A stretch of 34,743 nucleotides of DNA. Origin: Planctomycetota bacterium. Lineage in GTDB: Bacteria > Planctomycetota > Phycisphaerae > UBA1845. The notes beneath the pieces are model-generated. The model saw only the letters and a program-made list of their open reading frames with translations. It had not been told where the DNA came from and did no database searches. The position numbers and the translations under genes are program-made. The stretch is from assembly GCA_030622435.1 (NCBI GenBank), contig JAUXGE010000005.1, positions 1 through 34,743 on the forward strand. The letters run 5' to 3'. Positions 1-34,244 of the stretch are shown piece by piece (position 1 is the first letter of the stretch; the number at the start of each line of letters is the position of its first letter).

Positions 1-1083
1 GAGGCGTCCATCGCCCAGATGAACACGCCGCCAACGGCATCGGATCAGAGCGTTTCGCTTGCGTCAGACAATGCCGTGTCGTTGACACTCTTGGCAAGTG
101 ACGCAGACGGTGACGACCTGACGTTTTCGATAGTCGATGGACCGGAGTATGGGACGCTGGGTGCCGTCGACAACTATCCGTTATCGACTGCGGCGGTTGT
201 CTACACGCCGGATTCGGGTTTCACCGGCACTGACGCATTCACGTTCCAGGTCAGTGATGGAGAGGCTGAGTCAACTGTAGCAACTTTCACGATTCTGCCT
301 TGTGAGACGCTGAAGATCATTCCGTGGGTGGAATTGAACTATTCGGCATACGACGAACAGGGTATTGAGGGACTACTGATCTGGCAGGAGGTGACTGACA
401 CTGCAATTGTCTCGACGATTCCGGGTCGTGACGCCCTGTACACCAAACTGCAAAATCGCGTGCCGGGTATGCGCATCATCCCCGGCCTGAAGACGATGGA
501 CTTGCTGGATCGGTTCGACTCCGTGGAGGGATGGCAGGCGGTCGCCCAGGAGGTTTCAGCGATCCGACAGACTTCCGGCGAGAGTGTGATCCTGCTTGAG
601 AACGAGGTGGCGATTATGGACTATCGCTTGGGAGAGCAGAGCATCGATCTCGATCAGCTTGGAAGCGGGCTCGGGCAGTTACCGAACGACATCGAGTTCA
701 TCTGGTATCCGAGCATTCACGGCCACAGTATGATAGCTCAGGAGCGCTATGCGGCTGTGTGCCGAGTGGTCTCGGCCGTGTGCAACGTGCGTTTTGTAGA
801 TCGCAGCGTGGAGACGCCAGCGGCGTTGGAGGACTTGTGGTTGCAACAAGCCCGAAGCACACTGGAGCTTATCTCATCGTCGCCGACACTGCCGATGTTG
901 TATGCCTATGCTGAGGACTCCGGGTTCATTCACTGGCCGGACAGTCAAATCCCCGAGGCCCTGGAGTATGTGCGCAAAGAATGGGGGCCTGATGCTGAAG
1001 TGATCATCTATCCCGGCGTGGAACGTTGGGTTGAAGCGGCATGGTCTCTCTCGGAGCTACTTCCAGCACCGTGCGCGCCTTAG
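1..1083 (+). CDS. Partial (5' truncated) secreted/surface protein: cadherin/Ig-like repeat followed by a conserved domain of unknown function
   Basis: Frame is open to base 1 (gag gcg tcc atc gcc cag atg). 'ASDADGDDLTFSIVDGPEYGTL...YTPDSGFTGTDAFTFQVSDGEAES' is a typical cadherin-like/bacterial Ig repeat. The C-terminal ~260 aa is highly similar to the product of 1592..2494. Confidence 0.8.
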   Translation, partial: EASIAQMNTPPTASDQSVSLASDNAVSLTLLASDADGDDLTFSIVDGPEYGTLGAVDNYPLSTAAVVYTPDSGFTGTDAFTFQVSDGEAESTVATFTILPCETLKIIPWVELNYSAYDEQGIEGLLIWQEVTDTAIVSTIPGRDALYTKLQNRVPGMRIIPGLKTMDLLDRFDSVEGWQAVAQEVSAIRQTSGESVILLENEVAIMDYRLGEQSIDLDQLGSGLGQLPNDIEFIWYPSIHGHSMIAQERYAAVCRVVSAVCNVRFVDRSVETPAALEDLWLQQARSTLELISSSPTLPMLYAYAEDSGFIHWPDSQIPEALEYVRKEWGPDAEVIIYPGVERWVEAAWSLSELLPAPCAP

Positions 1084-9800: not shown

Positions 9801-9918
9801 CTGTATCGGCCGACCCCTGTGTCGGCCGTAGCTGTACCGTAGCGGCCGGCGTTCCCGCTGGCCGTCGTGAGCAATAGCACCTGCTCGGGGAAACGGCCTG
9901 CGAGGACGCTGGCCGCTA
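9801..9918. repeat. Cluster of three TGTAGCGGCC-type palindromic intergenic repeats
   Basis: tatcggccgacccctgtgtcggccgta, ccgtagcggccggcgttcccgctggccgt and inverted aacggcctgcgaggacgctggccgctaca; the same family recurs at 26763-26906. Confidence 0.75.
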
Positions 9919-9958
9919 CAATCTCAGGAGAACGATTTCACTTCCAATGTTACCCGCG

Positions 9959-10805: not shown

Positions 10806-12158
10806 ATGCACAAGCACAACCTGGTTTGGATTGCGATATTCGGTGTCATCGCGCTGCTTTTCTTCCGTCTGCCTCAGATGGCAGCCAGGCAGGACGCGGT
10901 TGTCAACACATACAGTGCGCTCGTCGAGGTCGACGCACTGGCGAAGCAGAAGTACGTCGAGCCGATCGCGGGTGACCGTCTCGTCGACGGGGCCATTCGC
11001 GGCATGCTGCGACAGCTCGATCCCTACAGCGGGTATATCGCACCGGACAAACTCCCTGCCTTCGAGCGACGCGCGCGGGGCGACTTTATCGGAATCGGGA
11101 TCGAGGTCGGAGTGCGGAGCGATCGACTCACGGTGATAGCCCCTGTGGAGGGAAGCCCCGCCGCCAAGGCAGGCATTCTCCCAGGCGACGTGATCCTCTC
11201 GATCGACGGTCGGGATATCGAGAATCTCTCCGTCTTCGACGCAGAGCAACTGCTGGACGGTCCGGCCGGCAGCACACTCCGTCTGCGCGTGCAACATATC
11301 GACCAATCCAAGCCGGAAGATCTGACCATCGTACGCGGCCCGGTCAACATGCACACCGTTCGGGGGTTTCGGCGCGATACTGACGGGCGCTTCGAGTACA
11401 TGATCGACGAAGCCAACGGCATCGGGTACATGCGTATCAGCAACTTCCTGTACAACACCGTTCGCGATTTCGACGCCGTCTTGCAGAGACTCAGCGGGCA
11501 GGGTGTCAAGAGTCTGATCATCGATCTGCGATTCAATCCCGGAGGCGTGATGCAGCAGGCTGTCGCGATGGTGGATCGATTCGTTGACGACGGGGTCATC
11601 CTATCAACCGTCACGCGTCGCAAGGCGGTTCAGACCTACATGGCCACGGATGATGGAACCCTGAAGGATGTGAAGCTGGTCGTCCTCGTGAACGAGGCAT
11701 CAGCCAGCTCCGCGGAGATCGTGGCCGGCTCGCTCCAGGCCCTGGGCCGGGCTGAAATCATCGGGGAACGCAGCTTCGGCAAGGGCAGCGTGCAACACCT
11801 GATCCACCTGACCGAATCCAAAGGCGCGGTCAAGCTCACGACTGCGCATTACCGGCTTCCGGACGGTCGGATCATCCATCGAACACGAAAAAACGCTCAC
11901 ACCGATTCGTGGGGTGTGATCCCGGATATCGAGATCTCGCTAAGTGACGATGAACGCCGTGCGATCCGGGAAACGCGCCGTATACTGGATCTCGCCTTCG
12001 CCGATTCGGCACCTGGATCTCAGTGCCAACAAGATGACACCTCAGCGCACGAACAACCCGCCTCGCAGCCTCAAGAGCCGCTCGAAGTCCAACGTGACCG
12101 GCAGTTGCTCGAGGCGCTGGAGAACCTGCGCAAACGTATCCCCACTCGCAGTCCGTAG
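10806..12158 (+). CDS. ctpA: S41 family C-terminal processing peptidase with PDZ domain
   Basis: 'GAIRGMLRQLDPYSGYI', PDZ 'EGSPAAKAGILPGDVILSIDG', catalytic 'VNEASASSAEIVAGSLQALGRAEIIGERSFGKGSVQ'. Upstream in-frame start at 10773 also possible. Confidence 0.93.
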   Translation: MHKHNLVWIAIFGVIALLFFRLPQMAARQDAVVNTYSALVEVDALAKQKYVEPIAGDRLVDGAIRGMLRQLDPYSGYIAPDKLPAFERRARGDFIGIGIEVGVRSDRLTVIAPVEGSPAAKAGILPGDVILSIDGRDIENLSVFDAEQLLDGPAGSTLRLRVQHIDQSKPEDLTIVRGPVNMHTVRGFRRDTDGRFEYMIDEANGIGYMRISNFLYNTVRDFDAVLQRLSGQGVKSLIIDLRFNPGGVMQQAVAMVDRFVDDGVILSTVTRRKAVQTYMATDDGTLKDVKLVVLVNEASASSAEIVAGSLQALGRAEIIGERSFGKGSVQHLIHLTESKGAVKLTTAHYRLPDGRIIHRTRKNAHTDSWGVIPDIEISLSDDERRAIRETRRILDLAFADSAPGSQCQQDDTSAHEQPASQPQEPLEVQRDRQLLEALENLRKRIPTRSP

Positions 12159-13676: not shown

Positions 13677-14972
13677 CTACGGGTTCAAGAACGTCTCCAA
13701 ATAGCGGTACGGCTCAGTCAGTTTACCCTGGTACACGATCGTGGCCGCGATCAGCTCGGGCGGTAACCCGCTGTCGGCCAATGGGGCGCTATAGTCAGCA
13801 TGAGCCAAACCGGGCATCAACGGACTCAGTGAATGACTGAAATAGGTTGACGAGTCCACTGGAAGCTCACAAGGCAGGTGATCCACGGCCAGGATCACCG
13901 GCCCGTGCCCCGCAACTCCGTCGCGAGCCTGCCCGGATTGCGGTTCGTACACGAAAGCCGGATTATCCGGCTCCGTCGCCTTCAGGTTGCATTCAATCGA
14001 GCCGTCAACATCGGCCGTGATGTCGCCTATGACACGGAGCCGGGGCTGCTGAGACCCACCGTATAGCTCGCGCAGCAAGTCCAGCGAAACCAACCGTGGA
14101 TACTTCTCTTCCCAATAGATTCCGTTGACAAGCACCGTCAGATGCGGAACGAAGGGTGCAAAGACACCACGGTACCGCTCCGGATGGTCGTAGTACTCCT
14201 GCAAATCGAACGGCAAAGCGGGATCCACACGCTCGACCATATGCTTCTCGTAGAATACCGACTTGAAGCACACATTGGCCGAATTTGGTACGGTGGACAG
14301 ATCGGCCGGTGCGACTTCCTGCATGGGAAGCAGATCGGCGATCTCCTGTGCCCCCTGGGAGACCTGGCCGTATCCCGCGAAGCCGAACACGAGAGGTCGG
14401 CAGGCCTCGGGAAGCCCGTCCTTCCGAATCAGGTCACCAACCTTGGCGATGTCGGCTTTGGCATGATCGAGGGTGTCGTACTGGTAGGCCTTGCGGAGGG
14501 TCGAGAAAGGCGTGTCTATGCCTTCGTGTTGCCAGCGCTGTCCCAGTGCCCAGAGCGTGTCGATCATCCCCGCCAGTCCGGCGTATCGTCCGAAGAACAC
14601 CAACCGGCGTCCCTGTGCATCGACGATCTTCTCATAGTCGATCAGTTGGCAGTTCAACTCCATCAGGCGGCGTAGCGCCGGCATGTTGGACGCCTGCCCT
14701 TTGATCACGTGGGAAAAGTAGAGGTAGGTACGATCCGGCAGGAGCTTCTCTGCCGGGATCTCCTTGACGCCCACGATGATCGGGCAGTCATCCACGTTAT
14801 CCGCGACGGTCGCCCCGGCCGACGTGTAGTCAGCGTCGGGAATGGCCCGGGTCGGCGACGTCTGCACATGGAAAGCGAGCCCATGGTCACGAATCAGCAC
14901 ACGGACATCGTCAGGCACCAACGGCACCCGTGCCTCCCAGACGCTCTTGTCTTCATGCCGAATCCCGATCAT
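13677..14972 (-). CDS. Lysine-ketoglutarate reductase-like (AASS LKR-domain) / alanine dehydrogenase N-domain family protein
   Basis: 'MIGIRHEDKSVWEARVPLVPDDVRVLI...VKEIPAEKLLPDRTYLYFSHVIKGQ...LIDYEKIVDAQGRRLVFFGRYAGLAGMIDTLWALG'. Listed ORF extends to 15038. Confidence 0.9.
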   Translation of the reverse strand: MIGIRHEDKSVWEARVPLVPDDVRVLIRDHGLAFHVQTSPTRAIPDADYTSAGATVADNVDDCPIIVGVKEIPAEKLLPDRTYLYFSHVIKGQASNMPALRRLMELNCQLIDYEKIVDAQGRRLVFFGRYAGLAGMIDTLWALGQRWQHEGIDTPFSTLRKAYQYDTLDHAKADIAKVGDLIRKDGLPEACRPLVFGFAGYGQVSQGAQEIADLLPMQEVAPADLSTVPNSANVCFKSVFYEKHMVERVDPALPFDLQEYYDHPERYRGVFAPFVPHLTVLVNGIYWEEKYPRLVSLDLLRELYGGSQQPRLRVIGDITADVDGSIECNLKATEPDNPAFVYEPQSGQARDGVAGHGPVILAVDHLPCELPVDSSTYFSHSLSPLMPGLAHADYSAPLADSGLPPELIAATIVYQGKLTEPYRYLETFLNP

Positions 14973-15208
14973 CTCACGTTCTCTCGCAAAGCGGCAGAGG
15001 CTGCCCGGGCAATAGCCCTTACATTCGTGACGACACAAGTTCGGACGGGGATGCCATGCGGCTCCCTCCCGTCACCGCAGATTGAGGGGTGATCCTAGAA
15101 GACCCGCCGATACCGGTCAACCACGATCGGGGACAGTCTTTGGAACCTTGTGCCGTGTTTCATCAGTTCCGCGCCTACCCGAGCCTCGACCCGGCGCCCG
15201 CGCCGCGT

Positions 15209-15649: not shown

Positions 15650-15855
15650 TAGCCCCGGATGGGGCGTCAGAATCTAGCCCCGGGCGTGAGCCCGGGGAAA
15701 GGTACGGACCATGGACTAAGCCCCAGAGGGGCGGCAGAAACCTGGCATAGGCGACGGTCAAAGTCTGTCGCCCCTCCAGGGCTCGGCGCTCGCAGTCGGA
15801 GCCGCGAACCCCGGGCTCGCGCCCGGGGCTACGATCTGTCGTCCCTACGGGACTT
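15650..15855. repeat. ~205-bp imperfect inverted repeat made of nested palindromic modules
   Basis: ccccgggcgtgagcccgggg (15678-15697) mirrored by ccccgggctcgcgcccgggg (15809-15828); agccccagaggggcggcaga (15719-15738) mirrored by tctgtcgcccctccagggct (15764-15783). Confidence 0.8.
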
Positions 15856-22375: not shown

Positions 22376-22555
22376 TCCTCGGATTCGGCGCCCAGTTTGG
22401 GTTGCACCCGTCGCCGTGTTATGACGTCCATTGCGCTTGAGGTCCCACCGGTGCCGTCGTACACTGACAACCTGTTTGAAAACCCGCCGGATGCCCGGAT
22501 GCGGCCGCGTATGCCGGCGTGGAAATCCGTCACCTGATTGACCGAGACTGAAGCC

Positions 22556-23617
22556 ATGCGCAAGGAATCCTACGACTTTCTCAAGACGATCCAGGAAACG
22601 CCGTCGCCATCCGGGTTCGAGCAGCCCGTGCAGCGCGTGGTCCGTGAACGCATGGAGCCTTTCGCCGACGCGATCGAGACGGATGTGCATGGCAGCGTGA
22701 TCGCATCGCTCAACCCCAAGGGCTTCCCTCGCGTCATGCTGGCCGGTCACTGCGACCAGATCGGCATGATGGTGAAGTACATCGACGACAATGGGTACCT
22801 CTTCTTTGCGCAGATCGGAGGTATAGACCCGTCCGTCCTGCCCGGATTGCGAGTCGTGGTTCACACTGCTCACGGCCCGATCGACGGTGTGATCGGGCGC
22901 AAACCGGTCCATGTGCTCAAGCCGGAGGAGCGCGGCGGCAAGACGGAGTTGCGCGACATGTGGGTCGACATCGGAGCGAAAGACAAGAAGGAAACGGAGC
23001 GAGTGGTCAGCATCGGGGACCCGATCACGTTCCATCTGGGACTGACACACTTGGGCGGGGATCTCGTTACCGCCCCGGCGTTCGACAACAAGAGCGGCGT
23101 GTTTGTCGTGATGGAAGCCCTTCGACTTTGCTCGGTTAAGAAGATCAAGTGTGCCCTGTTCGCCGTCAGCACGGTCCAGGAGGAGATCGGCCTGCGCGGT
23201 GCAAAGACCTCGTGTTTCGGGATTGACCCCCAGGTGGGGATCGCCGTGGATGTGACGCACGCCACCGACTATCCGGACATCGACAAACGTGTCAACGGCG
23301 ACATCAAGATCGGTTCCGGACCGACGATCCCCCGCGGTGCGAACATCAACCCCAAGCTCGAGACGATGCTCGTCAAGACCGCCAAAGCCAAGCGCCTGCC
23401 GTTTCAAATGGAGGCCTCGCCGGGAGCCACCGGGACCGACGCGAATGTGATTCAATTGACTCGTGCCGGTGTGGCGACCGCCCTAATCGGCATCCCGAAC
23501 CGATACATGCACACGCCGACGGAGATCGTCAGCCTCTCGGACCTGGAGGCCGCTGCGAAGCTGGTGTCCGAGACCGTAGCAACGATCAACCGCCGGACCA
23601 AGTTCATTCCGGAGTGA
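22556..23617 (+). CDS. M42 family metallopeptidase (glutamyl aminopeptidase/endoglucanase type)
   Basis: 'QETPSPSGFEQPVQRVVRERM', 'LAGHCDQIGMMVKYID', 'APAFDNKSGVFVVMEAL', 'STVQEEIGLRGAKTS', 'HTPTEIVSLSDLEAAAKLV'. Alternative TTG start at 22538. Confidence 0.95.
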   Translation: MRKESYDFLKTIQETPSPSGFEQPVQRVVRERMEPFADAIETDVHGSVIASLNPKGFPRVMLAGHCDQIGMMVKYIDDNGYLFFAQIGGIDPSVLPGLRVVVHTAHGPIDGVIGRKPVHVLKPEERGGKTELRDMWVDIGAKDKKETERVVSIGDPITFHLGLTHLGGDLVTAPAFDNKSGVFVVMEALRLCSVKKIKCALFAVSTVQEEIGLRGAKTSCFGIDPQVGIAVDVTHATDYPDIDKRVNGDIKIGSGPTIPRGANINPKLETMLVKTAKAKRLPFQMEASPGATGTDANVIQLTRAGVATALIGIPNRYMHTPTEIVSLSDLEAAAKLVSETVATINRRTKFIPE

Positions 23618-23624
23618 CCGTCCG

Positions 23625-25412
23625 GTGAAGCCCCCTGCTGATGATGGAGGAGTGGTGGATTTGGCCACGTCGCGGCTGACCCAACTCGTTACACGCGAGA
23701 CCCTGCAGACACTTCAGGATCGCTTTGCCGCCCTAGGCATGGTCACGGTGTGTGTCTGTACGGTCGACGGTGAGCCGACCACGAAGCCGAGCTGGGGGAG
23801 CCGATACTCCGAGTTGGTCGGGACGTCCCCCCGCGGACGCAGAGTCTTCTCGGAGACGACCCGCGCCTGCGCCAAGGACCCCGATTCCGAAGTGCCGTCC
23901 ATGTGCCACGGCGGCATGACGATGTACGCCGCACCGATCGCACATGACGGAGAGTGTCTGGGTGTGATCGTTGTCGGCACACGCGCATCCGACCTGCCGT
24001 CACCCGAGACGGTCGAGACAATCGCCGAGAAGTACGGGATTCCGTCCGAGAAACTGCATGAAGCTGTTGCATCGATCAATCCGCATGCGGGTGGTACGCC
24101 GGAAGCCATCCGCTGCTTCGCGGACGGGCTTGCACGCACGATAGCCACACTCTACGGCCAGGCCGACCGCATCGAGCATCAACTCCACGACCTTCGCACT
24201 GTCCACTCGTTTACCGAGCTGCTCTCGTGCATGTGTGACCTGCAGGAAGTTCTCGATCTGACGGTCCTGCGGGTTGCGGAGGTGATGCCCATCAAGGCTT
24301 GTGCAATCCGGCTGCTGGACCCGGACACGGGCGAACTCGTGATCAAGGCGGTTCACAATCTGTCGGAAGAGTATTTGAAGAAGGGGCCGGTCATGCTTCG
24401 CGATAACGCCATCGATACTACGGCGTTTGCGGGTGAGTCCGTCTTCATTGCCGACGTATCCAACGATCCACGAACACGCTACCCGGAAAACGCGCGGCGC
24501 GAGGGCCTTGTCAGCAGCCTGTGCGTACCGCTCACCTATCGCGGTCAGACGATCGGTGTGATCCGGGTGTACACCGCAAGACCGCACAGGTTCACGGATA
24601 CGGAGGAATCGCTTCTGCGGTCGATCGGCTCACAGGTGGCGGCCGTAGTTATCAGCACGCGGTTATGGGAAGGCCGGGCGAAGGCGGAGGACTTCCAGCG
24701 ACAGGTGGACGCCGCCGCCGCCGTTCAGCGTCACATGCTGCCGGCCGGCCCACCAATGAGTGCGGGTCTCGAGTTCGGCTGTGTGTACGACCCGAGCCGG
24801 CAGCTCGGTGGCGATCTTTATGACTTCATCGAGTTCGCTGACGGAAGCATCGGCGTCTGTGTGGCGGACGTTGTCGGGAAGGGCCTTCCTGCAGCGTTGC
24901 TCATGGCGGCCATCCGGTCCATCCTGCGAGGTCATGCCCATGATTCTGACGAGATCAGCAGACTCGTCATGCACGTCAACGAACACATGTGTCACGATAC
25001 GCTGCCCAACGAGTTCGCGACACTAGCCTACGGCGTGTTCTCACCCGATGGACGAACATTCACGTACTGCAACGCCGGGCACGTGCCACCACTCCTGCTT
25101 CGTGCCGGAGAGTTCCACGAGCTGAACGCCGGCGGCATGGTCATCGGCGTCCTGCCCGGGGAGGAGTACGAGCAGGACATCGTCAATCTTGATAGTGGCG
25201 ACATCCTCGTCATGGTGAGCGACGGGATTACCGAAGCGATGGACTTCGAAGAGAATTCCTACGGTCGGGATCGATTGCTGGCGTCCATCCAGCGGCACCA
25301 ATCCCTCGACGCCCAACAGCTTGCACAACAGATACAGTGGGATGTCCGGCGGTTCGCCGGTCTGGCCGAGCAGTCAGACGACATTACGATCCTGGTCGCG
25401 AAAAAGATCTGA
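23625..25412 (+). CDS. PocR-like sensory domain + GAF + SpoIIE-type PP2C phosphatase
   Basis: N-terminal PocR-like pattern (TRETLQTLQDRFAALGMVTVCVCTVDGEPTTKPS...CHGGMTMYAAPIAHDGECLGVIVVG), GAF (DLTVLRVAEVMPIKACAIRLLD...GLVSSLCVPLTYRGQTIGVIRVYT), SpoIIE (QRHMLPAGPPMSAGLEFGCVYDPSRQLGGDLYDF...VVGKGLPAALLMAA). GTG start, 7 nt after the M42 stop. Confidence 0.88.
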   Translation: MKPPADDGGVVDLATSRLTQLVTRETLQTLQDRFAALGMVTVCVCTVDGEPTTKPSWGSRYSELVGTSPRGRRVFSETTRACAKDPDSEVPSMCHGGMTMYAAPIAHDGECLGVIVVGTRASDLPSPETVETIAEKYGIPSEKLHEAVASINPHAGGTPEAIRCFADGLARTIATLYGQADRIEHQLHDLRTVHSFTELLSCMCDLQEVLDLTVLRVAEVMPIKACAIRLLDPDTGELVIKAVHNLSEEYLKKGPVMLRDNAIDTTAFAGESVFIADVSNDPRTRYPENARREGLVSSLCVPLTYRGQTIGVIRVYTARPHRFTDTEESLLRSIGSQVAAVVISTRLWEGRAKAEDFQRQVDAAAAVQRHMLPAGPPMSAGLEFGCVYDPSRQLGGDLYDFIEFADGSIGVCVADVVGKGLPAALLMAAIRSILRGHAHDSDEISRLVMHVNEHMCHDTLPNEFATLAYGVFSPDGRTFTYCNAGHVPPLLLRAGEFHELNAGGMVIGVLPGEEYEQDIVNLDSGDILVMVSDGITEAMDFEENSYGRDRLLASIQRHQSLDAQQLAQQIQWDVRRFAGLAEQSDDITILVAKKI

Positions 25413-25457: not shown

Positions 25458-26615
25458 ATGAACGAGCCGCCGGAAACAACCCCGTCCTGCTGCTGTGGCG
25501 GAAGTATTCCCTCGGCCGGTGGTCCCGGAACGGATCTCGCACGGGCTGAGCCACCCGCCACTCCTGCCCGTGCGTACGAACCGTGGATGATCGGCACGGT
25601 GAGGACACCTCACGGCGACGTGCCGCAAGTCTCCACGACGCTGGACCGGCGCGACCGCATCGGTCATTGGAAAGCACGCTGGGGCATGCGACGGATGCTG
25701 TTCCTGGTCCAACCCGGACTGTATGCCGCCGGGTCTCCGGACAGCGACTCGCCCGTACTCGTGTCGGCGAACTACAAGATGAGCTTCGACCGGCTGCGAT
25801 CGCAGTTCGATAGTCTCGACGCGTGGATTCTGGTGCTCGACACCAAGGGCATCAACGTCTGGTGTGCGGCCGGCAAGGGGACGTTCGGAACCGACGAGAT
25901 CGTCCGGCGTGTCGGAGCGGTCGGACTCGACGACATCGTGACTCACCGACGTTTGATCGTTCCACAGCTCGGTGCTCCCGGCGTGGCCGCGCACGAGGTG
26001 AGAAAGCGGTGCGGCTTCTCGGTCACGTTCGGGCCGGCGCGTGCCGAGAACATTCCGCTCTTTATCAATGCCCGGCTCGAGGCCACGCCCGAGATGCGCC
26101 GCGTCCGGTTCCCCCTGTGCGACCGCATCGTGCTGATCCCGATGGAGCTGGTCGGCGGCCTGAAGTACGCCGTGTGGATCGCGGTGGGCTTTCTGCTGCT
26201 GGCCGGATTGGGCGAAGGCTACTACTCGCTCGAGCGGGTCGGGGATCCCGGTTTGCGGCATGCGGGCCTGTTGCTGGCTGCCTTTCTGCTGAGCGTCGTA
26301 CTGGTGCCGGCACTGCTGCCGTGGCTGCCGGGACGAGCGTTCTCGGCCAAGGGTGCGTGGCTCGGGATCGCGATGGCGTTGATCCTCGTGGCGTGCGAGT
26401 GGCGTGCGCCCGGCATGTTCGAGAATTGGTGGACTCTGGCCGCATGGGTCCTGATGATCCCCACACTGGCGAGCGTCCTCGGCATGAACTTCACCGGGGC
26501 GTCGACCTATACGTCGCTGTCCGGCGTTCAACGGGAGATGCGCGCTGCGCTGCCGCTTCAGGCAGTGTGTGGGGTGATCGGGGTGGGCCTGTGGCTGGCC
26601 GGTCGGTTTCTTTGA
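25458..26615 (+). CDS. hgcA: HgcA, corrinoid iron-sulfur-like mercury methylation protein
   Basis: Signature cap-helix motif N(V/I)WCA(A/G)GK as 'GINVWCAAGKGTFGTDEIV'; corrinoid-domain context 'VSANYKMSFDRLRSQFDSLDAWILVLDTKGINVWCAAGK'; C-terminal multi-TM domain with 'GMNFTGASTYTSLSGVQREM'; hgcB downstream. Confidence 0.95.
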   Translation: MNEPPETTPSCCCGGSIPSAGGPGTDLARAEPPATPARAYEPWMIGTVRTPHGDVPQVSTTLDRRDRIGHWKARWGMRRMLFLVQPGLYAAGSPDSDSPVLVSANYKMSFDRLRSQFDSLDAWILVLDTKGINVWCAAGKGTFGTDEIVRRVGAVGLDDIVTHRRLIVPQLGAPGVAAHEVRKRCGFSVTFGPARAENIPLFINARLEATPEMRRVRFPLCDRIVLIPMELVGGLKYAVWIAVGFLLLAGLGEGYYSLERVGDPGLRHAGLLLAAFLLSVVLVPALLPWLPGRAFSAKGAWLGIAMALILVACEWRAPGMFENWWTLAAWVLMIPTLASVLGMNFTGASTYTSLSGVQREMRAALPLQAVCGVIGVGLWLAGRFL

Positions 26616-26949
26616 TAGGATGTCCGTGCCACACAACGTTCGGCAGGTGTGCCACTGGTGTGTCAGCAGTGCTCGGTTTTCTACGTCGTTGCACGACCAG
26701 AGCACGGCTCATAGAGCCGTGGCACACAGGCTGCAAGGTGCGTCTCTGACGCACAGAGTCGATGTAGCGGCCGACTCCCGTGTCGGCTGAAGATGCCGGA
26801 ACGTCGAGCAATCTGTAGCGGCCTGCGTCTCGCAGGCCGAAGATGTCCGTTCACAGCCGAGGGCGGCTGTGCCACACGCCGGCCGGCGGGGACGCCGGCC
26901 GCTACGGTGTTCTTTGCGTCTCGGATTCTGACTGGAGAGTCGAATTGAT
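26616..26949. repeat. Cluster of several distinct palindromic repeats between hgcA and hgcB
   Basis: cacggctcatagagccgtg (26703-26721), tgcgtctctgacgca (26739-26753), tgtagcggccgactcccgtgtcggctga (26763-26790), tgtagcggcctgcgtctcgcaggccga (26814-26840), inverted acgccggccggcggggacgccggccgctac (about 26876-26906). Confidence 0.8.
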
Positions 26950-27288
26950 ATGAGCCTACGGTATCTCGCAAACGTGGCCACGCTGAGGTTGGACCCGGAC
27001 AAGTGCACGGGCTGCGGCGTCTGCACGGAGGTCTGCCCTCAGGGTGTTTTCGCCATGGAGTCCCGCAAGGCCCGGATCATCGACCTCGACGCATGCATGG
27101 AGTGCGGCGCATGTGCCCTCAATTGCGCCTTCGGCGCGTTGACCGTACACGCCGGTGTGGGCTGCGCGGCCGCCGTCATCAACGGGATGCTGCGCGGCGG
27201 CGAACCCAACTGCGACTGCGGCCCCAGCACCGACTCCTGCTGCGATAGCGATTCCAACCGCGACAATGATCCCGGCTGCTGCGGCTGA
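26950..27288 (+). CDS. hgcB: HgcB, 2x[4Fe-4S] ferredoxin of mercury methylation
   Basis: 'DKCTGCGVCTEVCPQGVF', 'DACMECGACALNCAFGAL', 'VGCAAAVINGML', Cys-rich C-terminal tail 'NCDCGPSTDSCCDSDSNRDNDPGCCG'; downstream of hgcA on the same strand. Confidence 0.94.
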   Translation: MSLRYLANVATLRLDPDKCTGCGVCTEVCPQGVFAMESRKARIIDLDACMECGACALNCAFGALTVHAGVGCAAAVINGMLRGGEPNCDCGPSTDSCCDSDSNRDNDPGCCG

Positions 27289-27318: not shown

Positions 27319-28392
27319 TCACGCCGGTTCGCCGGCCACGCCATCACTCTCCACGAAGTAGCGCCGTTTGAGCCAGAACGCCACGTTGACCAGCCCGATC
27401 AGCACCGGCACCTCGACGAGGGGACCAATGACCGCGGCGAACGCGACGCCCGAACCGATGCCGAAGACCGCCACGGCCACGGCGATCGCCAGCTCGAAGT
27501 TGTTGCTGGCGGCCGTGAAGGCGATCGTGGTCGTCTTCTTGTAGTCCGCCCCGAGCTTCTTCCCCATCCAGAAAGAAACCAGGAACATGACGACGAAGTA
27601 GATACACAGCGGAATGGCAATACGGACGACGTCGAACGGAAGCCGAACGATGTATTCCCCCTTCAGGGAGAACATCACCAGAATCGTAAACAGAAGGGCA
27701 ATCAACGTGACCGGCGAGATCTTCGGGATGAACTTCGTTTCGTACCACTCGCGCCCCTTGGCCTTGAGCAGCACGAACCGAGTGATCATGCCGGCCAGGA
27801 ACGGAATGCCCAGATAGATGAAAACGCTCTCGGCGATCTGGCCGATCGTCACCCCCACCTCGACACCCTTCAGACCGAACAACGGCGGCAGGATCGTGAT
27901 GAAGAACCAGGCATAGACCGAATAGAAGAGCACCTGGAAGATGGAGTTGAAGGCTACCAGGCCCGCCGCATACTCGGTGTCCCCCTTGGCCAGGTCGTTC
28001 CACACGATCACCATGGCGATGCATCTGGCCAGACCGATCATGATCAAACCGACCATGTACTCCGGATAGCCGCGTAGAAACAGGATCGCCAGGGCAAACA
28101 TCAGAACAGGACCGATCACCCAGTTCTGCACCAGGGAGAGGCCCAACACCCTCACATTGCGAAAGACATCACCCAGCTCCTCGTACTTCACCTTGGCCAG
28201 CGGAGGGTACATCATCAGGATCAGACCGAGGGCGATCGGGATGTTCGTCGTCCCGACCTGAAACCGGTTGATTAAGTCCTCCACGCCGGTAAAGAAGTAG
28301 CCCCCGCCGACTCCCACGGCCATGGCCAGGAAAATCCAAAGGGTCAGGAACCGATCGAGAAAGGACAGCCGTTTCCCTCGGGCTGCTTCCAT
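27319..28392 (-). CDS. acr3: ACR3 family arsenite efflux permease
   Basis: '[22 protein letters not shown]', '[24 protein letters not shown]', '[45 protein letters not shown]', '[21 protein letters not shown]'. Confidence 0.96.
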
Positions 28393-28443
28393 GTTTCATA
28401 CTCCACTGATAAATCGAGTGCCTTCTGGACTGGTGCGGCGAAC

Positions 28444-28508
28444 GTAGCGCCGCTCCTTGTGGGCGGCGCCTCCGTGTTTCTGCCGTCACCCACAAGGGGT
28501 GACGCTAC
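28444..28508. repeat. Inverted repeat pair between the NapH-like gene and acr3
   Basis: gtagcgccgctccttgtgggcggcg (28444-28468) mirrored by gtcacccacaaggggtgacgctac (to 28508). Confidence 0.75.
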
Positions 28509-28529
28509 ATCGAGACGAGAAACGCCGGA

Positions 28530-29786
28530 CTATCCACCCGCTGTGCCGTACTCCTCGGCAGCCTCTTCCTCGACCACGTCGTCCTGGGCTCCGCCTTCCT
28601 CCGTGGCGTCTTCGTCGATCCCGAGCGGATCGTATCCCTTGATCACGAAAGGCGAGAAGCGCCAGAGCCCGCCAAGCGCATCGTAGTACGGCTCCGTGAT
28701 GGCCTGCTTGACGGCCGCCTCGCTGCTCTGCGACGGGTCAAAGGTCACGCGAGCAGGCGCCGCTCCGGGACCGGGCCACGCCTCCAGTTTCAGGTAGCCC
28801 TTCAGCTCGAACTCGTCGTCGCGTTCCAGAAAATAGACAAGAAGGTTGGCAGTGCCACGGCACGTCAGACCCGTGATGTCGAGGTCCACTGCGGCCGTCA
28901 CCTCAGGCGCCTGGCCTCGCGTCTTGACGAAGGACGGCAATGGAAACACGTAGCTCGCCATCACCGCCACTGCCGTGCAAGACAGCAGGATGCCGACAAG
29001 AACACCATTCGACCAACGACGCCCTAACCACGGGGGTGGTCCCCATGTCATAGCGCCGTCACTGCGAGCTGGGCACACGTCGACACAGCTCAGACACGAC
29101 AGGCATCGTGCGGCCGTTACTTGCTCGACCTTGTCAACGGGGATATCCATAGGACAGGCGGCCGCACAGTCGCCACAGTCCAGACAGGCCTCCCCATCGC
29201 GCCTGACCCGCGCCAACCCGACACGCGAAACCGGGTTGAGCACGGCCGCGAGCGGGCACAGCCACCGGCAGAACGGCAACGTCAGGACCAGCGATCCGAT
29301 CACGATGATCCCGGCCACCACATACGCCCAGAACGTGATGTCCTCTCCGTGGCGGCTGATCAGCGCATAACAGGGATCGTACCCCCGGAAGACCAACTCC
29401 GCGGTCGTATACGTGAAGTACAGAATGATTGCGAGCACCGTATACTTCAGAACGGACAAGCTTCGATCCAGGGAGGGCGGTACACGGAACGGTCGAACGC
29501 CTACCTTTGCAGCGCACCGCTGAAGCCACTCGGAGATCGTGCCTATCGGGCACATATACGCACAGAACGCCCGCCGAAGCAGCAAGGTCATCAACACAAC
29601 GGCGGCCAGAATGTAGAAGTTGGAGACGGCCAGAGAGCAGGCGAGGTTGCCTTCCTTGACGTACGTGTACAGAGCCTCGATACCGCCGAACGGGCACCAT
29701 CGCTCGGCGTTGCCGCGAAACACGAAGACACCACCCAGCGTCAAGAGCAGGAAGCCCAGTTGGATCGCTCGCCGCGTGGTTCTCAT
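28530..29786 (-). CDS. NapH/NosR-like 4Fe-4S polytopic membrane protein with C-terminal degenerate HMA-like domain
   Basis: 'RRAFCAYMCPIGTISEWL', 'LPFCRWLCPLAAVLNPVSR', 'EACLDCGDCAAACPMDI', 'ARCLSCLSCVDVCP', then 'LDITGLTCRGTANLLVYFLERDDEFELKGYLKLEAWPGPGAAPARVTFDPSQSSEAAVKQAITEPYY'. ATG 29786; listed ORF extends to 30038. Confidence 0.85.
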   Translation of the reverse strand: MRTTRRAIQLGFLLLTLGGVFVFRGNAERWCPFGGIEALYTYVKEGNLACSLAVSNFYILAAVVLMTLLLRRAFCAYMCPIGTISEWLQRCAAKVGVRPFRVPPSLDRSLSVLKYTVLAIILYFTYTTAELVFRGYDPCYALISRHGEDITFWAYVVAGIIVIGSLVLTLPFCRWLCPLAAVLNPVSRVGLARVRRDGEACLDCGDCAAACPMDIPVDKVEQVTAARCLSCLSCVDVCPARSDGAMTWGPPPWLGRRWSNGVLVGILLSCTAVAVMASYVFPLPSFVKTRGQAPEVTAAVDLDITGLTCRGTANLLVYFLERDDEFELKGYLKLEAWPGPGAAPARVTFDPSQSSEAAVKQAITEPYYDALGGLWRFSPFVIKGYDPLGIDEDATEEGGAQDDVVEEEAAEEYGTAGG

Positions 29787-29902
29787 TCGCGTCCCGTTAA
29801 ACAAGTGCGCTTTGTGGGCCAATGGCCGGTGGCCGGAGTCGACGTCTTGCCTGCTGCGTGCCCGCTCCTTGACAGTCGCGGTTCTGATTGAGAGCACTGC
29901 AC

Positions 29903-29920
29903 GGGCAAACAAGTTTGCCC
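29903..29920. repeat. Short perfect palindrome
   Basis: gggcaaac-aa-gtttgccc followed by atgccaccc, the same flank as the 22168-22375 repeat family. Confidence 0.7.
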
Positions 29921-29956
29921 ATGCCACCCGGCGCGCCGTTCCCATCCAGGCTGCAA

Positions 29957-30826
29957 CTAGTCGTCGCTCTTTTGCGCCTTGCCCTGTCCACACGTGGCCC
30001 GCTTGGGACACTGGCCGCACGATGGCCCCTTGCTGCACCCGGATTCCTCGACCCGGGACGAGGTCTTCAACACCTGGGCGAAGTCGGGATGCTCCAAGAG
30101 TGAGCTGAACTCCGCATTCACTTTGACCTGGGACTTGAGAGCGTCTAGCTGGCTGGGCGGCGTCAACTGGAACGACCGTGTCAGCGCATAGAGTGCACCC
30201 CGCGCATTCCCGAGCAGAACCCGCACGCGGGCCAGGTCGAGGAAGTAGAGTGGCCCGGCCTCGTCCGTTTCCATTTCCGGCTTCTCCGCCAGCTTCTTCG
30301 CCTCATCAATGCGCCCCAGTCGCGCCAGGGCGAGTCCGTGAAGCACGCCGACCCGTGCGGAGGTTTGCCCATCCGGCAGGTTCCCGAGCGTCTCGGCAGC
30401 CTCGGAATTCCGGCCTAGTGCGAGCTGTGTCTCGGCCAGCAGCACGGCACTCTCGGCCGACGGCTGTCGCCGGTACCGCTCCTGATCCAGTGGAAGCGCT
30501 TCGGCGTGAATCTGATGATCGTAGTAGTACGCGCGCAAAGCGCCGGCCGTCTTCAACCATCGTTCGGGGTCCTGCTCACGCGGGCAATCCTTGCGCAGCT
30601 TAATCACCTGACGGAGCAGGGCGTATTGCTGCGCGTATTCCTGATTCTCGGCGTCCTTCCGAGCGGCCGTCTTGAACGTCTTGAGCGCCTCCTCGAAGTC
30701 GGCATGGGCAAGCAACGCCTTTCCGGCGGCGAACTCTCCGGCGGCGTCTCGGATCGGCTTTGCATGGACGGGCGCGACGATCGACACCCAACCGGCCAAC
30801 AAACACAACGTCACAATTCGGTTCAT
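29957..30826 (-). CDS. Secreted TPR-like repeat protein with Cys-rich C-terminus
   Basis: Signal peptide (MNRIVTLCLLAGWVSIVAPVHA), helical repeats (FEEALKTFKTAARKDAENQEYAQQYALL; LAETQLALGRNSEAAETLGNL), C-terminal 'CSKGPSCGQCPKRATCGQGK'. Confidence 0.72.
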   Translation of the reverse strand: MNRIVTLCLLAGWVSIVAPVHAKPIRDAAGEFAAGKALLAHADFEEALKTFKTAARKDAENQEYAQQYALLRQVIKLRKDCPREQDPERWLKTAGALRAYYYDHQIHAEALPLDQERYRRQPSAESAVLLAETQLALGRNSEAAETLGNLPDGQTSARVGVLHGLALARLGRIDEAKKLAEKPEMETDEAGPLYFLDLARVRVLLGNARGALYALTRSFQLTPPSQLDALKSQVKVNAEFSSLLEHPDFAQVLKTSSRVEESGCSKGPSCGQCPKRATCGQGKAQKSDD

Positions 30827-30847
30827 AGGAAAGCCCCTTTCCGAGAA

Positions 30848-31528
30848 TCACAGTACGTCGAAGATAAACGCCAGACAGAAGTATATCCCCAAACCGATGA
30901 AGATCACCCCCGTTACACGGCGAGCCCAAAGCTCGAACTGGGTGATCTTGTTGAAGGCTCGACCCACCGCCCCCGTGCCGACCGCGATGAGAATCGCAAA
31001 CGCCATCACTGGCAATGCGGTGCCGACGCCGTAGACGAGCGGCACGAGGAATCGAGATTCATACTTGATGGCCAGAGAGACAAGACTCAAGAAAAACAAA
31101 GCAGCCGAGCCGGGGCAGAACGACAAGGCAAACACGACACCCAGCACAAGACCACCCCAAACACCCAGTGACTCGACACGCTGCCCCAGCTTCTCGCCGA
31201 CCCCGGCACCTCGCATGTTGAATCGGAGTAGGTCCAGCAGGATCATCCCGACCAGGATCAGGATCGGACCCAGCAGCTTGCTCATGTGGTCTTGAAGGAA
31301 TTGGGAGACGACATGCGTCGTAAGCAGGCTCGAGACCAGCACAGCCCCGAGAACGATATACACGACCGATCGGCCCAGCGTATACAGAAGACCGGTTGTT
31401 ACGACGTACCTGGCATTCGCCACGCGCCGGCCGATGAACGAGATCGCCGCTATGTTCGTCGCCAGCGGACACGGACTGATCGACGTCAGGATCCCCAGCC
31501 AAGCGGCCGACGCGAGCCCGATCAACAT
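30848..31528 (-). CDS. arsG: ArsG-family (CcdA/DsbD-like fold) membrane permease
   Basis: 'WLGILTSISPCPLATNIAAISFIGRRVANARYVVTTGLLYTLGRSVVYIVLG' and 'LSFCPGSAALFFLSLVSLA'. Start uncertain: ATG 31528 or GTG 31540 overlapping the arsF stop. Confidence 0.8.
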   Translation of the reverse strand: MLIGLASAAWLGILTSISPCPLATNIAAISFIGRRVANARYVVTTGLLYTLGRSVVYIVLGAVLVSSLLTTHVVSQFLQDHMSKLLGPILILVGMILLDLLRFNMRGAGVGEKLGQRVESLGVWGGLVLGVVFALSFCPGSAALFFLSLVSLAIKYESRFLVPLVYGVGTALPVMAFAILIAVGTGAVGRAFNKITQFELWARRVTGVIFIGLGIYFCLAFIFDVL

Positions 31529-31536
31529 CTCACCTG

Positions 31537-32025
31537 TCACGGGCTCTGCTCCAGGTATGCTCGCGTCTCGTCCTCGACAAACCCCAGGAACGCCGGCTTG
31601 TCCGAAACCAAGTTCCACACCTCCTCCACCGTCTTCCAAGCTTTCTGCTCGCCGCCCCGCATGTCGACAAGGACGAGGGAGCTTGTCGTCAACTCATAGT
31701 CACGGAGGAAATGCTCGTTCTGCCGCTCGTCGAAGTTGACGACCTGCCACTGGAGCCGGCCCGAGGCAAGCTCATCGGGGAAGGCGCTCGTCAAGGCCTC
31801 GTGGGCATACTCCTCGATGGCCAGGCACGTCTTGCAGCGCACATCACTATGGAAGTAGTAGGCGATCAGAATATCCTGCACGGCGGAAGTCGCCTCGCCG
31901 GGTACCGCCGCAGCCGCGCCGGGCTCAGGCTCCGATCCAGATCGCAGTTCACTGGCGACAAGATAGACGACACTGACGGCTACGAAGAGCAGCAGAACCG
32001 CCGATACGATGTTCTTGGACTTCAT
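31537..32025 (-). CDS. arsF: ArsF-family protein (thioredoxin-like, membrane-anchored)
   Basis: N-terminal TM, 'ILIAYYFHSDVRCKTCLAIEEYAHEAL...WQVVNFDERQNEHFLRDYEL', adjacent to the ArsG-like gene. Confidence 0.78.
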   Translation of the reverse strand: MKSKNIVSAVLLLFVAVSVVYLVASELRSGSEPEPGAAAAVPGEATSAVQDILIAYYFHSDVRCKTCLAIEEYAHEALTSAFPDELASGRLQWQVVNFDERQNEHFLRDYELTTSSLVLVDMRGGEQKAWKTVEEVWNLVSDKPAFLGFVEDETRAYLEQSP

Positions 32026-32175
32026 GTCTGATCCTCACCCGTCTCGGGCATGTGTGCGACGTCTTCAATATCGCCTGTCCGCCATGGCTGACACAGTGAT
32101 GACACACACAGCCGGCGTCCGAGGCTGATCGCTGTGCGGGGCCAGACAGCCTCTCCGCAAGTACACCCACACGAG

Positions 32176-32412
32176 TCATTTCCCTTGAATCATAGCCTTA
32201 ATCTGGTCTACCGACAGCAGCTTGCCGGAGGCCTTGACCTGGCCGTCAACCACGAGCGCCGGCGTCATCATGACGCCCTTGGCCATGATCTGCGTAATAT
32301 CCGTGACCTTCTCGACCTCGCAATCCAAGCCGAGTTGTTGAACCGCCGCCGCAGCAGCAGCGGCCAGGGCGTTACACTTCTGACATCCCGTACCCAAAAC
32401 CTCGATTTTCAT
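32176..32412 (-). CDS. arsE: MTH895/ArsE-family small thioredoxin-like protein
   Basis: 'MKIEVLGTGCQKCNALAAAAAAAVQQLGLDCEVEKVTDITQIMAKGVMMTPALVVDGQVKASGKLLSVDQIKAMI' with CxxC; overlaps the upstream permease stop by ATGA. Confidence 0.85.
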   Translation of the reverse strand: MKIEVLGTGCQKCNALAAAAAAAVQQLGLDCEVEKVTDITQIMAKGVMMTPALVVDGQVKASGKLLSVDQIKAMIQGK

Positions 32413-33728
32413 GACGAAACTCCAGTACTCAACGCGCCGTACACCATCCCGACGATCGTGGCCATGACCACGACTAGAATGGTGAATACTGCTGTCTTCT
32501 TCAGCCCGATAACAGACCGGATCACAAGCAAGCTCGGTATCGAGAGCGCCGGGCCGGCCAGCAACAGCGCCAAGGCCGGTCCTTCGTGCATACCTCGCTC
32601 CATGAGTGCCTGCAAAATCGGAACCTCCGTGAGCGTCGCAAAGTAGAACAGGCAGCCCACGACCGACGCGACCAGGTTCGACTTGAGGCTGTTGTCGCCT
32701 ACAAGACCGGCCACCTGCTCGTCAGGAAGCAGCGCGCCGAGAAAACCCACGATGAACACCCCGCCGAAAAGCAGCGGAATGAGCAGCTTGGCGAAGTCCC
32801 ACGTGTTGTGCATCCACTCGGCAACCTCGTCACGATCAAACCATCGCCACACCATCAGAAGCACGGCCAGACCCATCGCCCCGGCCAGGATCCACTTCAT
32901 GTGAAAGATCGCCATGACCAGGCCCTGCGCCTCTTCGATTCTCTCGATCTCCGCTTTTGCAAGCGTGATCTTGTCACCGACCTTCATTCCGCCGACGGGC
33001 CGGTCCACCTGGATGAGCACTTCGTCTCTGGTCTCCTGCAAGAGGACGGCCGGGATCGTCACGCCGTCGCGTCTGTGTACGACCACGTTGCCGGGGTTGT
33101 ACCAGTCACTGAAGACGAGAAAGGCCATCATGCAGGCGAAATAGAGGACCATCTGCCAGAGGGATCGCCGAGCCGGCGGCGATTCGGGCAAATCGGCCAT
33201 AGCTTCGTTGCGTTCCTGCTCATCCTTCCGAAAAATGACGGCCATGATCAGGCCGATGATTATGCCGAAGACGATCGCGCCTACCGCCCGTGCCACACCG
33301 ATCTGAAAGCCGAGTACGCGCGCGGTCAGAAAGATCGCCAGGATGTTGAGCGCCGGACCGGAGTAAAGGAACGCCGACGCCGGCCCGAGACCCGCGCCCA
33401 CTCTGTAGATTCCGGCGAACATCGGTAGCACGCTGCAGGAACAAACCGCAAGCACTGTTCCCGAGACCGAAGCCACCGAGTAAGCCTCGACTTTGTTGGC
33501 CTTCGGCCCAAGGTGTCGCAGAACAGCTTCCTTAGACAGAAACGTGATGATGCCTCCGGCGATGAAAAGTGCCGGCACCACACAAGCCAGCGTGTGGTTA
33601 CGGGCATACCACTGGAGCATCTTGAAGGCTTCCAGGATGGCGCCGGTCACCTTCGCGCTCGATAGGGGAAGAAAGTAGGCCGCCAGAAAGACGGCAAGGA
33701 ACGCAACAAAGATCTTCCACTCTCTCAT
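32409..33728 (-). CDS. COG0701/UPF0718-type permease (ArsP-like or SO_0444-like metal(loid) efflux)
   Basis: 'GGIITFLSKEAVLRHLGPKANKVEAYSVASVSGTVLAVCSCSVLPMFAGIYRVGAGLGPASAFLYSGPALNILAI' with the characteristic VCSCSVLPM motif. Confidence 0.88.
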   Translation of the reverse strand: MREWKIFVAFLAVFLAAYFLPLSSAKVTGAILEAFKMLQWYARNHTLACVVPALFIAGGIITFLSKEAVLRHLGPKANKVEAYSVASVSGTVLAVCSCSVLPMFAGIYRVGAGLGPASAFLYSGPALNILAIFLTARVLGFQIGVARAVGAIVFGIIIGLIMAVIFRKDEQERNEAMADLPESPPARRSLWQMVLYFACMMAFLVFSDWYNPGNVVVHRRDGVTIPAVLLQETRDEVLIQVDRPVGGMKVGDKITLAKAEIERIEEAQGLVMAIFHMKWILAGAMGLAVLLMVWRWFDRDEVAEWMHNTWDFAKLLIPLLFGGVFIVGFLGALLPDEQVAGLVGDNSLKSNLVASVVGCLFYFATLTEVPILQALMERGMHEGPALALLLAGPALSIPSLLVIRSVIGLKKTAVFTILVVVMATIVGMVYGALSTGVSS

Positions 33729-33864
33729 GCTTTGGGCTCTCCGCTATCTGATGGCTTCATGGCCAACTCGCCATGGGTTCCTGAAAAAAAAGTAAAGAAC
33801 TCACGTTCTCGCATCACTCCAAACCGCATGGCAGCTGTTTTCAATCGGTGCAATCCCAGTGTGG

Positions 33865-33883
33865 CACCGGTTTGTAACCGGTG
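33865..33883. repeat. Perfect short palindrome in the arsR-permease intergenic region
   Basis: caccggtt-tgt-aaccggtg. Confidence 0.7.
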
Positions 33884-33917
33884 GGTGCCCGCCTCTGCAC
33901 TCTCCGCCGTAAGACCC

Positions 33918-34244
33918 CTACAAACTCGCCACCAGCTTCGCCTGGGTTTTGAAGTTCGCCTTGAGCACTGACTCCATGCATCCGAAGAAGCCATCCAGGC
34001 ACTGGCACGTGTTATGGTAGACGCTCATCGAGCCTTCCTTGCGATCCTCGACGAGCCCCGTGTTCTTCAAAACGGCCAAGTGCTTGGAAACGGTCGATTG
34101 ATCGGACCCGACCAGTTCCGTCAGCTCGCAAACGCACAGCTCCTGCTGCTGCAGCGCGTCCAGAATCATCAACCGGCTCGGATGCGCCAGCGCCTTGGCG
34201 ATCTTCGCTCGGGCCTCGTACCGTTGTCGCGTCTTGATTTTCAT
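33918..34244 (-). CDS. arsR: ArsR family helix-turn-helix transcriptional regulator
   Basis: 'ARAKIAKALAHPSRLMILDALQQQELCVCELTELVGSDQSTVSKHLAVLKNTGLVEDRKEGSMSVY', with the CVCEL metal-site motif and C-terminal cysteines. Confidence 0.95.
   Translation of the reverse strand: MKIKTRQRYEARAKIAKALAHPSRLMILDALQQQELCVCELTELVGSDQSTVSKHLAVLKNTGLVEDRKEGSMSVYHNTCQCLDGFFGCMESVLKANFKTQAKLVASL

Follow-up and report, generated by a model that had tools for sequence, protein, structure and literature searches.

The window, by which we mean the whole stretch of 34,743 nucleotides that was analysed, contains what its reading frames indicate is an intact hgcA and hgcB pair. The two genes lie on the same strand, downstream of genes for an M42 peptidase and a PocR-GAF-SpoIIE phosphatase, and an arsenic-resistance (ars) operon converges on them from the other side (Table 1). 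An Rfam search of the window returned nothing beyond two Acido-Lenti-1 RNAs (RF01687) at 15651-15697 (-) and 15809-15854 (+), which lie about 110 bp apart in opposite orientation, upstream of an addB-like gene.

Table 1. Features of the hgc-ars locus, with related fused proteins in the last row. Positions refer to the window unless stated otherwise.
Feature	Position	Strand	Assignment and basis
M42 peptidase gene	22538..23617	+	Pfam; ancestral flank
PocR-GAF-SpoIIE phosphatase gene	23625..25412	+	Pfam; ancestral flank, syntenic in G001 and G003, which lack hgcA there
hgcA	25458..26615	+	ATG 25458, stop 26615, 385 aa; corrinoid-binding domain and five transmembrane helices; NF040863, PF03599, 51-protein alignment, AlphaFold2 model
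HgcA model helices	residues 227-248, 258-289, 295-316, 324-349, 354-384		Five transmembrane helices; AlphaFold2
hgcA-hgcB spacer	26617..26949	.	Dispersed hairpin-forming intergenic repeat
hgcB	26950..27288	+	ATG 26950, stop 27288, 112 aa; dicluster [4Fe-4S] ferredoxin; NF040864, alignment of 23 HgcB, Cys positions
ars operon	27319-34244	-	Convergent with hgcAB, directly downstream of hgcB
ACR3 arsenite efflux transporter	27319..28392	-	TIGR00832, 462.6 bits (cut-off 282.8); convergent with hgcB
NapH-like membrane 4Fe-4S protein	28530..30038	-	Fer4_5; NapH models below cut-off
TPR protein, Cys-rich C-terminus	29957..30826	-	Weak TPR matches, below cut-off
ArsG-type permease (DsbD-like)	30848..31639	-	NF040495, 278.9 bits (cut-off 200)
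ArsF-family protein	31537..32025	-	NF040494, 110.3 bits (cut-off 60)
ArsE/MTH895 thioredoxin-like protein	32176..32412	-	TIGR00412, 105.4 bits (cut-off 62)
ArsP_1-family permease	32409..33728	-	PF03773, 257.8 bits (cut-off 32.3)
ArsR/SmtB regulator	33918..34244	-	Head of ars operon; NF033788, 90.4 bits (cut-off 55)
Fused HgcAB-like protein records (G033 and G026)	L085, L084; L121 7787-14623		

Profile scoring of the two proteins, which the earlier note had proposed, placed both above their curated equivalog cut-offs. HgcA matched NCBIfam HgcA_corrinoid (NF040863) over profile positions 1-324 of 325 (441.6 bits, 1.7e-132; cut-off 275 bits), and HgcB matched HgcB_ferredoxin (NF040864) over positions 1-93 of 93 (124.1 bits, 1.5e-36; cut-off 99 bits). 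The sole Pfam match of HgcA is its corrinoid domain, recognised as CdhD (PF03599, 44.8 bits vs. a cut-off of 24.8). These NCBIfam and Pfam scores exclude a chance match. The NVWCAAGK motif occupies HgcA residues 133-140, with Cys136 as the strictly conserved cysteine, and the protein retains all 41 columns that are invariant among 51 aligned HgcA, with N133, V134, W135, C136, A138, and K140 among them. An AlphaFold2 model (mean pLDDT 88.6, pTM 0.83) combines an alpha/beta domain with five membrane helices, and the hydropathy of the protein is consistent with these. The cap segment (residues 137-140) is non-helical and has pLDDT <50 in this model, which was built without cofactor. The top PDB match of the model is the HgcAB model 9a0b (E 7.3e-21), itself also computed, and next come four CFeSP structures and a CODH/ACS complex; the predicted fold matches those of the published HgcAB model and CFeSP. 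The identification of HgcA in the earlier note, made from NVWCAAGK and a C-terminal membrane domain, is borne out by the equivalog score, the motif itself, and the five helices.

HgcB contains two CxxCxxCxxxC cluster motifs (Cys 19/22/25/29 and 49/52/55/59), and all eight cysteines are kept in an alignment of 23 HgcB. Cys72 is the conserved cysteine in GVGCA, and the tail carries cysteines at 88, 90, 97, 98, 110, and 111, with 97/98 and 110/111 forming pairs. The same-strand HgcB-type ferredoxin described previously is thus confirmed in its profile score, its two [4Fe-4S] motifs, and its Cys-rich tail. A GGAG sequence resembling a ribosome-binding site precedes the hgcB ATG. In the same-genus genome G002, N stretches within 11599-12006 and 14498-15181 of the record (L117) interrupt, among others, the hgcB tail and an ArsR-like gene, and comparison of HgcB with this relative is partial.

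hgcA and hgcB are separated by 334 bp and are not tightly adjacent, whereas the typical arrangement is near-abutting. Counted between the final hgcA codon and the first cluster cysteine of hgcB, the distance is 392 bases, compared with a median of 74 among measured pairs, and only 3 of 86 relatives have a wider spacing (88 rows minus two for the window itself; a few genomes occur twice). The extra length is due to a dispersed repeat, which matches 44 other places in the same assembly, nearly all of them on other contigs, and whose RNA fold has a z-score of -4.35. Such a structured repeat could lower co-transcription of hgcB. Members of this repeat family at 26617-26949 and 9803-9920 of the window have GTAGCGGCCG cores and inverted arms, and the genome holds dozens of copies.

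The ars operon is convergent with hgcAB, and the two are therefore not one transcript. The NapH-like Fe-S protein encoded within it (28530-30038) has an extra C-terminal domain (LTCRGTANLL). In G249, a genome of the same order, hgcAB is accompanied by a convergent ArsR-ArsP-ArsE-ArsF-ArsG set arranged as in the window. Among 80 named hgcAB loci, many with short flanks, at least 10 have ACR3 or other ars genes nearby, and ars genes including acr3 have already been published beside hgcAB (McDaniel et al., PMC7438021). An ArsR-ArsP-ArsE-ArsF-ArsG set resembling that of the window also adjoins the gene for a fused HgcAB-like protein in G033, a genome of the same family.

No 16S gene was found in the assembly, and the lineage was therefore assigned from rplB (ribosomal protein L2). 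The rplB of the assembly falls in a group with a genome labelled Planctomycetia (support 95/94) and in a group with genomes labelled Phycisphaerae and Phycisphaerales (100/98). By this marker the host is a Phycisphaerae-type planctomycete, in agreement with the PVC/Planctomycetota lineage guessed in the earlier note. Two records titled Actinomycetes/Actinomycetota (L044 and L024) have rplB identical to that of genomes in the planctomycete class of the window, and their titles look wrong.

In a 90-row tree, HgcA splits from CFeSP-type proteins at 99, and the window protein lies among the HgcA rows with those of G002 and G249, beside a row labelled Poribacteria. A 41-row tree joins it with the G002 copy (L082) at 100/94. 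A single HgcA clade of the window, G002, and G249 is compatible with the data (p-AU 0.338), this clade being only putative. One clade for all HgcA of the class is rejected (p-AU 0.0014), and HgcA therefore does not track class; hgcAB phylogeny generally departs from taxonomy (McDaniel et al., PMC7438021). The HgcA cut-off was passed in 9 of 299 sampled genomes of the class, the window's own counted, and in 2 of 60 genomes searched, namely G002 and the window's own. G001, which belongs to the same genus and is 97% complete, has no HgcA above the cut-off, and in G002 hgcA lies at a different site with different neighbours. hgcAB is thus patchy even within one genus, with two members carrying it at different sites and a third lacking it.

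Comparison with relatives indicates how the surroundings of the pair have changed. The M42 and SpoIIE-type genes keep their order in G001 (82% and 69% identical, respectively) and in G003 of the same family (73% and 56%). In both relatives the SpoIIE-type gene is followed by tRNA-Pro(UGG), and the sequence covered around the syntenic site contains neither hgc nor ars genes. In the window, the stop of the SpoIIE-type gene is followed after 45 bp by the start of hgcA, and the two could share a transcript; the SpoIIE-type gene is, like the M42 gene, conserved in the family. ARAGORN detected no tRNA in the window, and the tRNA-Pro(UGG) of the relatives was not found in its assembly: what matched was a tRNA-Pro(GGG), a tRNA-His, and, only in part, a sequence on a third contig. 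The contigs bearing these matches were rejected as the far edge of the block, as they show no synteny with the flank in the relatives. The contig stops at 34743, a short way beyond the ars operon, and the comparison covers the near edge of the block; no att repeat was seen. Because the relatives have the upstream genes and then tRNA-Pro, with hgc and ars genes absent, the block resembles an insertion, and it is plausible that it entered beside tRNA-Pro; alternatively, G001 and G003 may have lost it.

A broader proposal is that hgcAB moves among planctomycetes in a mercury-plus-arsenic block entering at the tRNA-Pro site. It is suggested by the convergent layout shared by the window and G249, and by the bare tRNA-Pro site of relatives lacking hgcA, where in G001 a serine-recombinase frame overlaps the tRNA. 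The window proteins scanned against profiles included none recognisable as a mobile-element product. We offer the proposal tentatively and think it rather unlikely; if true, it would identify a specific unit of transfer for genes that have lacked a known vehicle of spread. Horizontal transfer of hgcAB is already published, and McDaniel et al. (PMC7438021) reported that hgcA was not close to any known insertion sequence or transposase.

Several other explanations of the locus bear on these observations. The corrinoid domain resembles the CFeSP large subunit in both sequence and fold, which might suggest a CFeSP/CdhD-type Wood-Ljungdahl protein with a ferredoxin nearby. However, the CFeSP gamma-subunit model scores only 70.9 bits against a cut-off of 306, the protein has a membrane domain and NVWCAAGK, and the tree separates it from CFeSP-type proteins. 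This identity is refuted by profile score and tree position, leaving it next to no credence, and HgcA stands outside the CdhD-like proteins, as the earlier note held. A mis-binned or chimeric contig, with hgcAB from another organism, might be suspected in so fragmented an assembly (423 contigs, 76% complete), and the nearest HgcA rows beyond the window's own order come from other phyla. It is nevertheless very improbable: the M42 and SpoIIE-type genes on the contig are syntenic with those of G001, dozens of the assembly's other contigs also carry the spacer repeat, and the closest HgcA is that of the same-genus G002, a one-contig genome. The upstream synteny and the genome-wide repeat inside the locus tie the contig to its genome, to which it very likely belongs.

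The remaining alternatives accept the genes and question their role. Insertion of the repeat may have uncoupled hgcA from hgcB, leaving the pair decaying or silent. The rarely exceeded spacing and the strong fold of the repeat speak for this; yet both frames are intact with all invariant residues kept, hgcB has its own ribosome-binding-like sequence, and the gaps are even larger in three relatives, making decay improbable. A genuine HgcAB might instead be selected for another job, such as a methyl or metal(loid) reaction tied to arsenic handling, with mercury methylation as a side reaction. This draws on the adjoining ars operon in the window and G249, the ars genes near other hgcAB loci and in the survey of McDaniel et al. 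(PMC7438021), and the same genes beside the fused protein of G033. Against it, the ars genes lie on the opposite strand to hgcAB, resistance genes generally cluster together, and the 10 of 80 loci may reflect chance. We regard this explanation as possible but doubtful. The reading we prefer, and hold with high confidence, is that the locus is a complete, apparently working hgcAB in a Phycisphaerae-type planctomycete, probably acquired horizontally.

From the precedent of strain ND132 (PMC7305189), the window pair, if expressed as we infer, is predicted to convert Hg(II) to methylmercury. A corrinoid bound by HgcA, its cobalt coordinated from below by Cys136, would be methylated from the methyl pool of the cell. 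The resulting methyl-cobalamin would transfer its methyl group to Hg(II) brought in by the tail cysteine pairs of HgcB, whose two [4Fe-4S] clusters would re-reduce the cobalt. Neither MetH nor MeTr was found as a methyl source in the 76% complete assembly, where the only Pterin_bind match is one 308-residue frame; other kinds of corrinoid proteins occur elsewhere in the genome, and G001, G002, and G249 have large B12-binding frames of MetH size. As to its origin, the pair probably entered horizontally between the conserved SpoIIE-type gene and what in relatives is the tRNA-Pro gene, in a block that held, or later gained, the ars operon.

Methylmercury acts as a neurotoxin in food webs, and which lineages can make it is of importance for interpreting amplicon and 16S surveys. 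The present case adds one planctomycete genus to the carriers of hgcAB, and the comparison of occupied and empty sites makes the idea of horizontal transfer testable. Features that merit closer study are the within-genus patchiness, the intergenic repeat, and the shared hgc-ars block, whose site is empty in relatives.

Among known systems, the pair is like HgcAB of Desulfovibrio desulfuricans (Pseudodesulfovibrio mercurii) ND132 in the corrinoid domain with its cap-region cysteine, the five transmembrane helices, and an HgcB with two clusters, an extra cysteine, and a tail cysteine pair; HgcA is 46% identical to model 9a0b (ND132 HgcAB) over the alignment. Mutagenesis in ND132 showed that Cys93 of HgcA and Cys73 and the terminal cysteine pair of HgcB matter (PMC7305189), and the conserved cysteines of the window proteins correspond to these residues. 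Unlike in ND132, the HgcB tail is longer (Cys 88/90, 97/98, and 110/111), a 334-bp gap separates the genes, and the host is a planctomycete. HgcAB-like fusion proteins (NF043039) likewise combine an HgcA-type domain containing NVWCA with a ferredoxin, but do so in one chain and lack the lysine of NVWCAAGK, whereas the window has two separate genes and scores 198.5 bits with this model, below the cut-off of 285. Two genomes of the same family, G033 and G026, encode such fused proteins (357 and 386 bits), with NVWCA and no lysine. hgcAB has been published from Planctomycetes/Phycisphaerae and other PVC bacteria (PMC10469668, PMC7438021, and PMC7573106), which share the pair and belong to the same class or superphylum. 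With Phycisphaerae hgcAB already reported, the window pair is a good further example and not a new system, distinguished from the published PVC cases by HgcA that forms no single clade across the class and by a genus where two members carry hgcA at separate places and a third has none.
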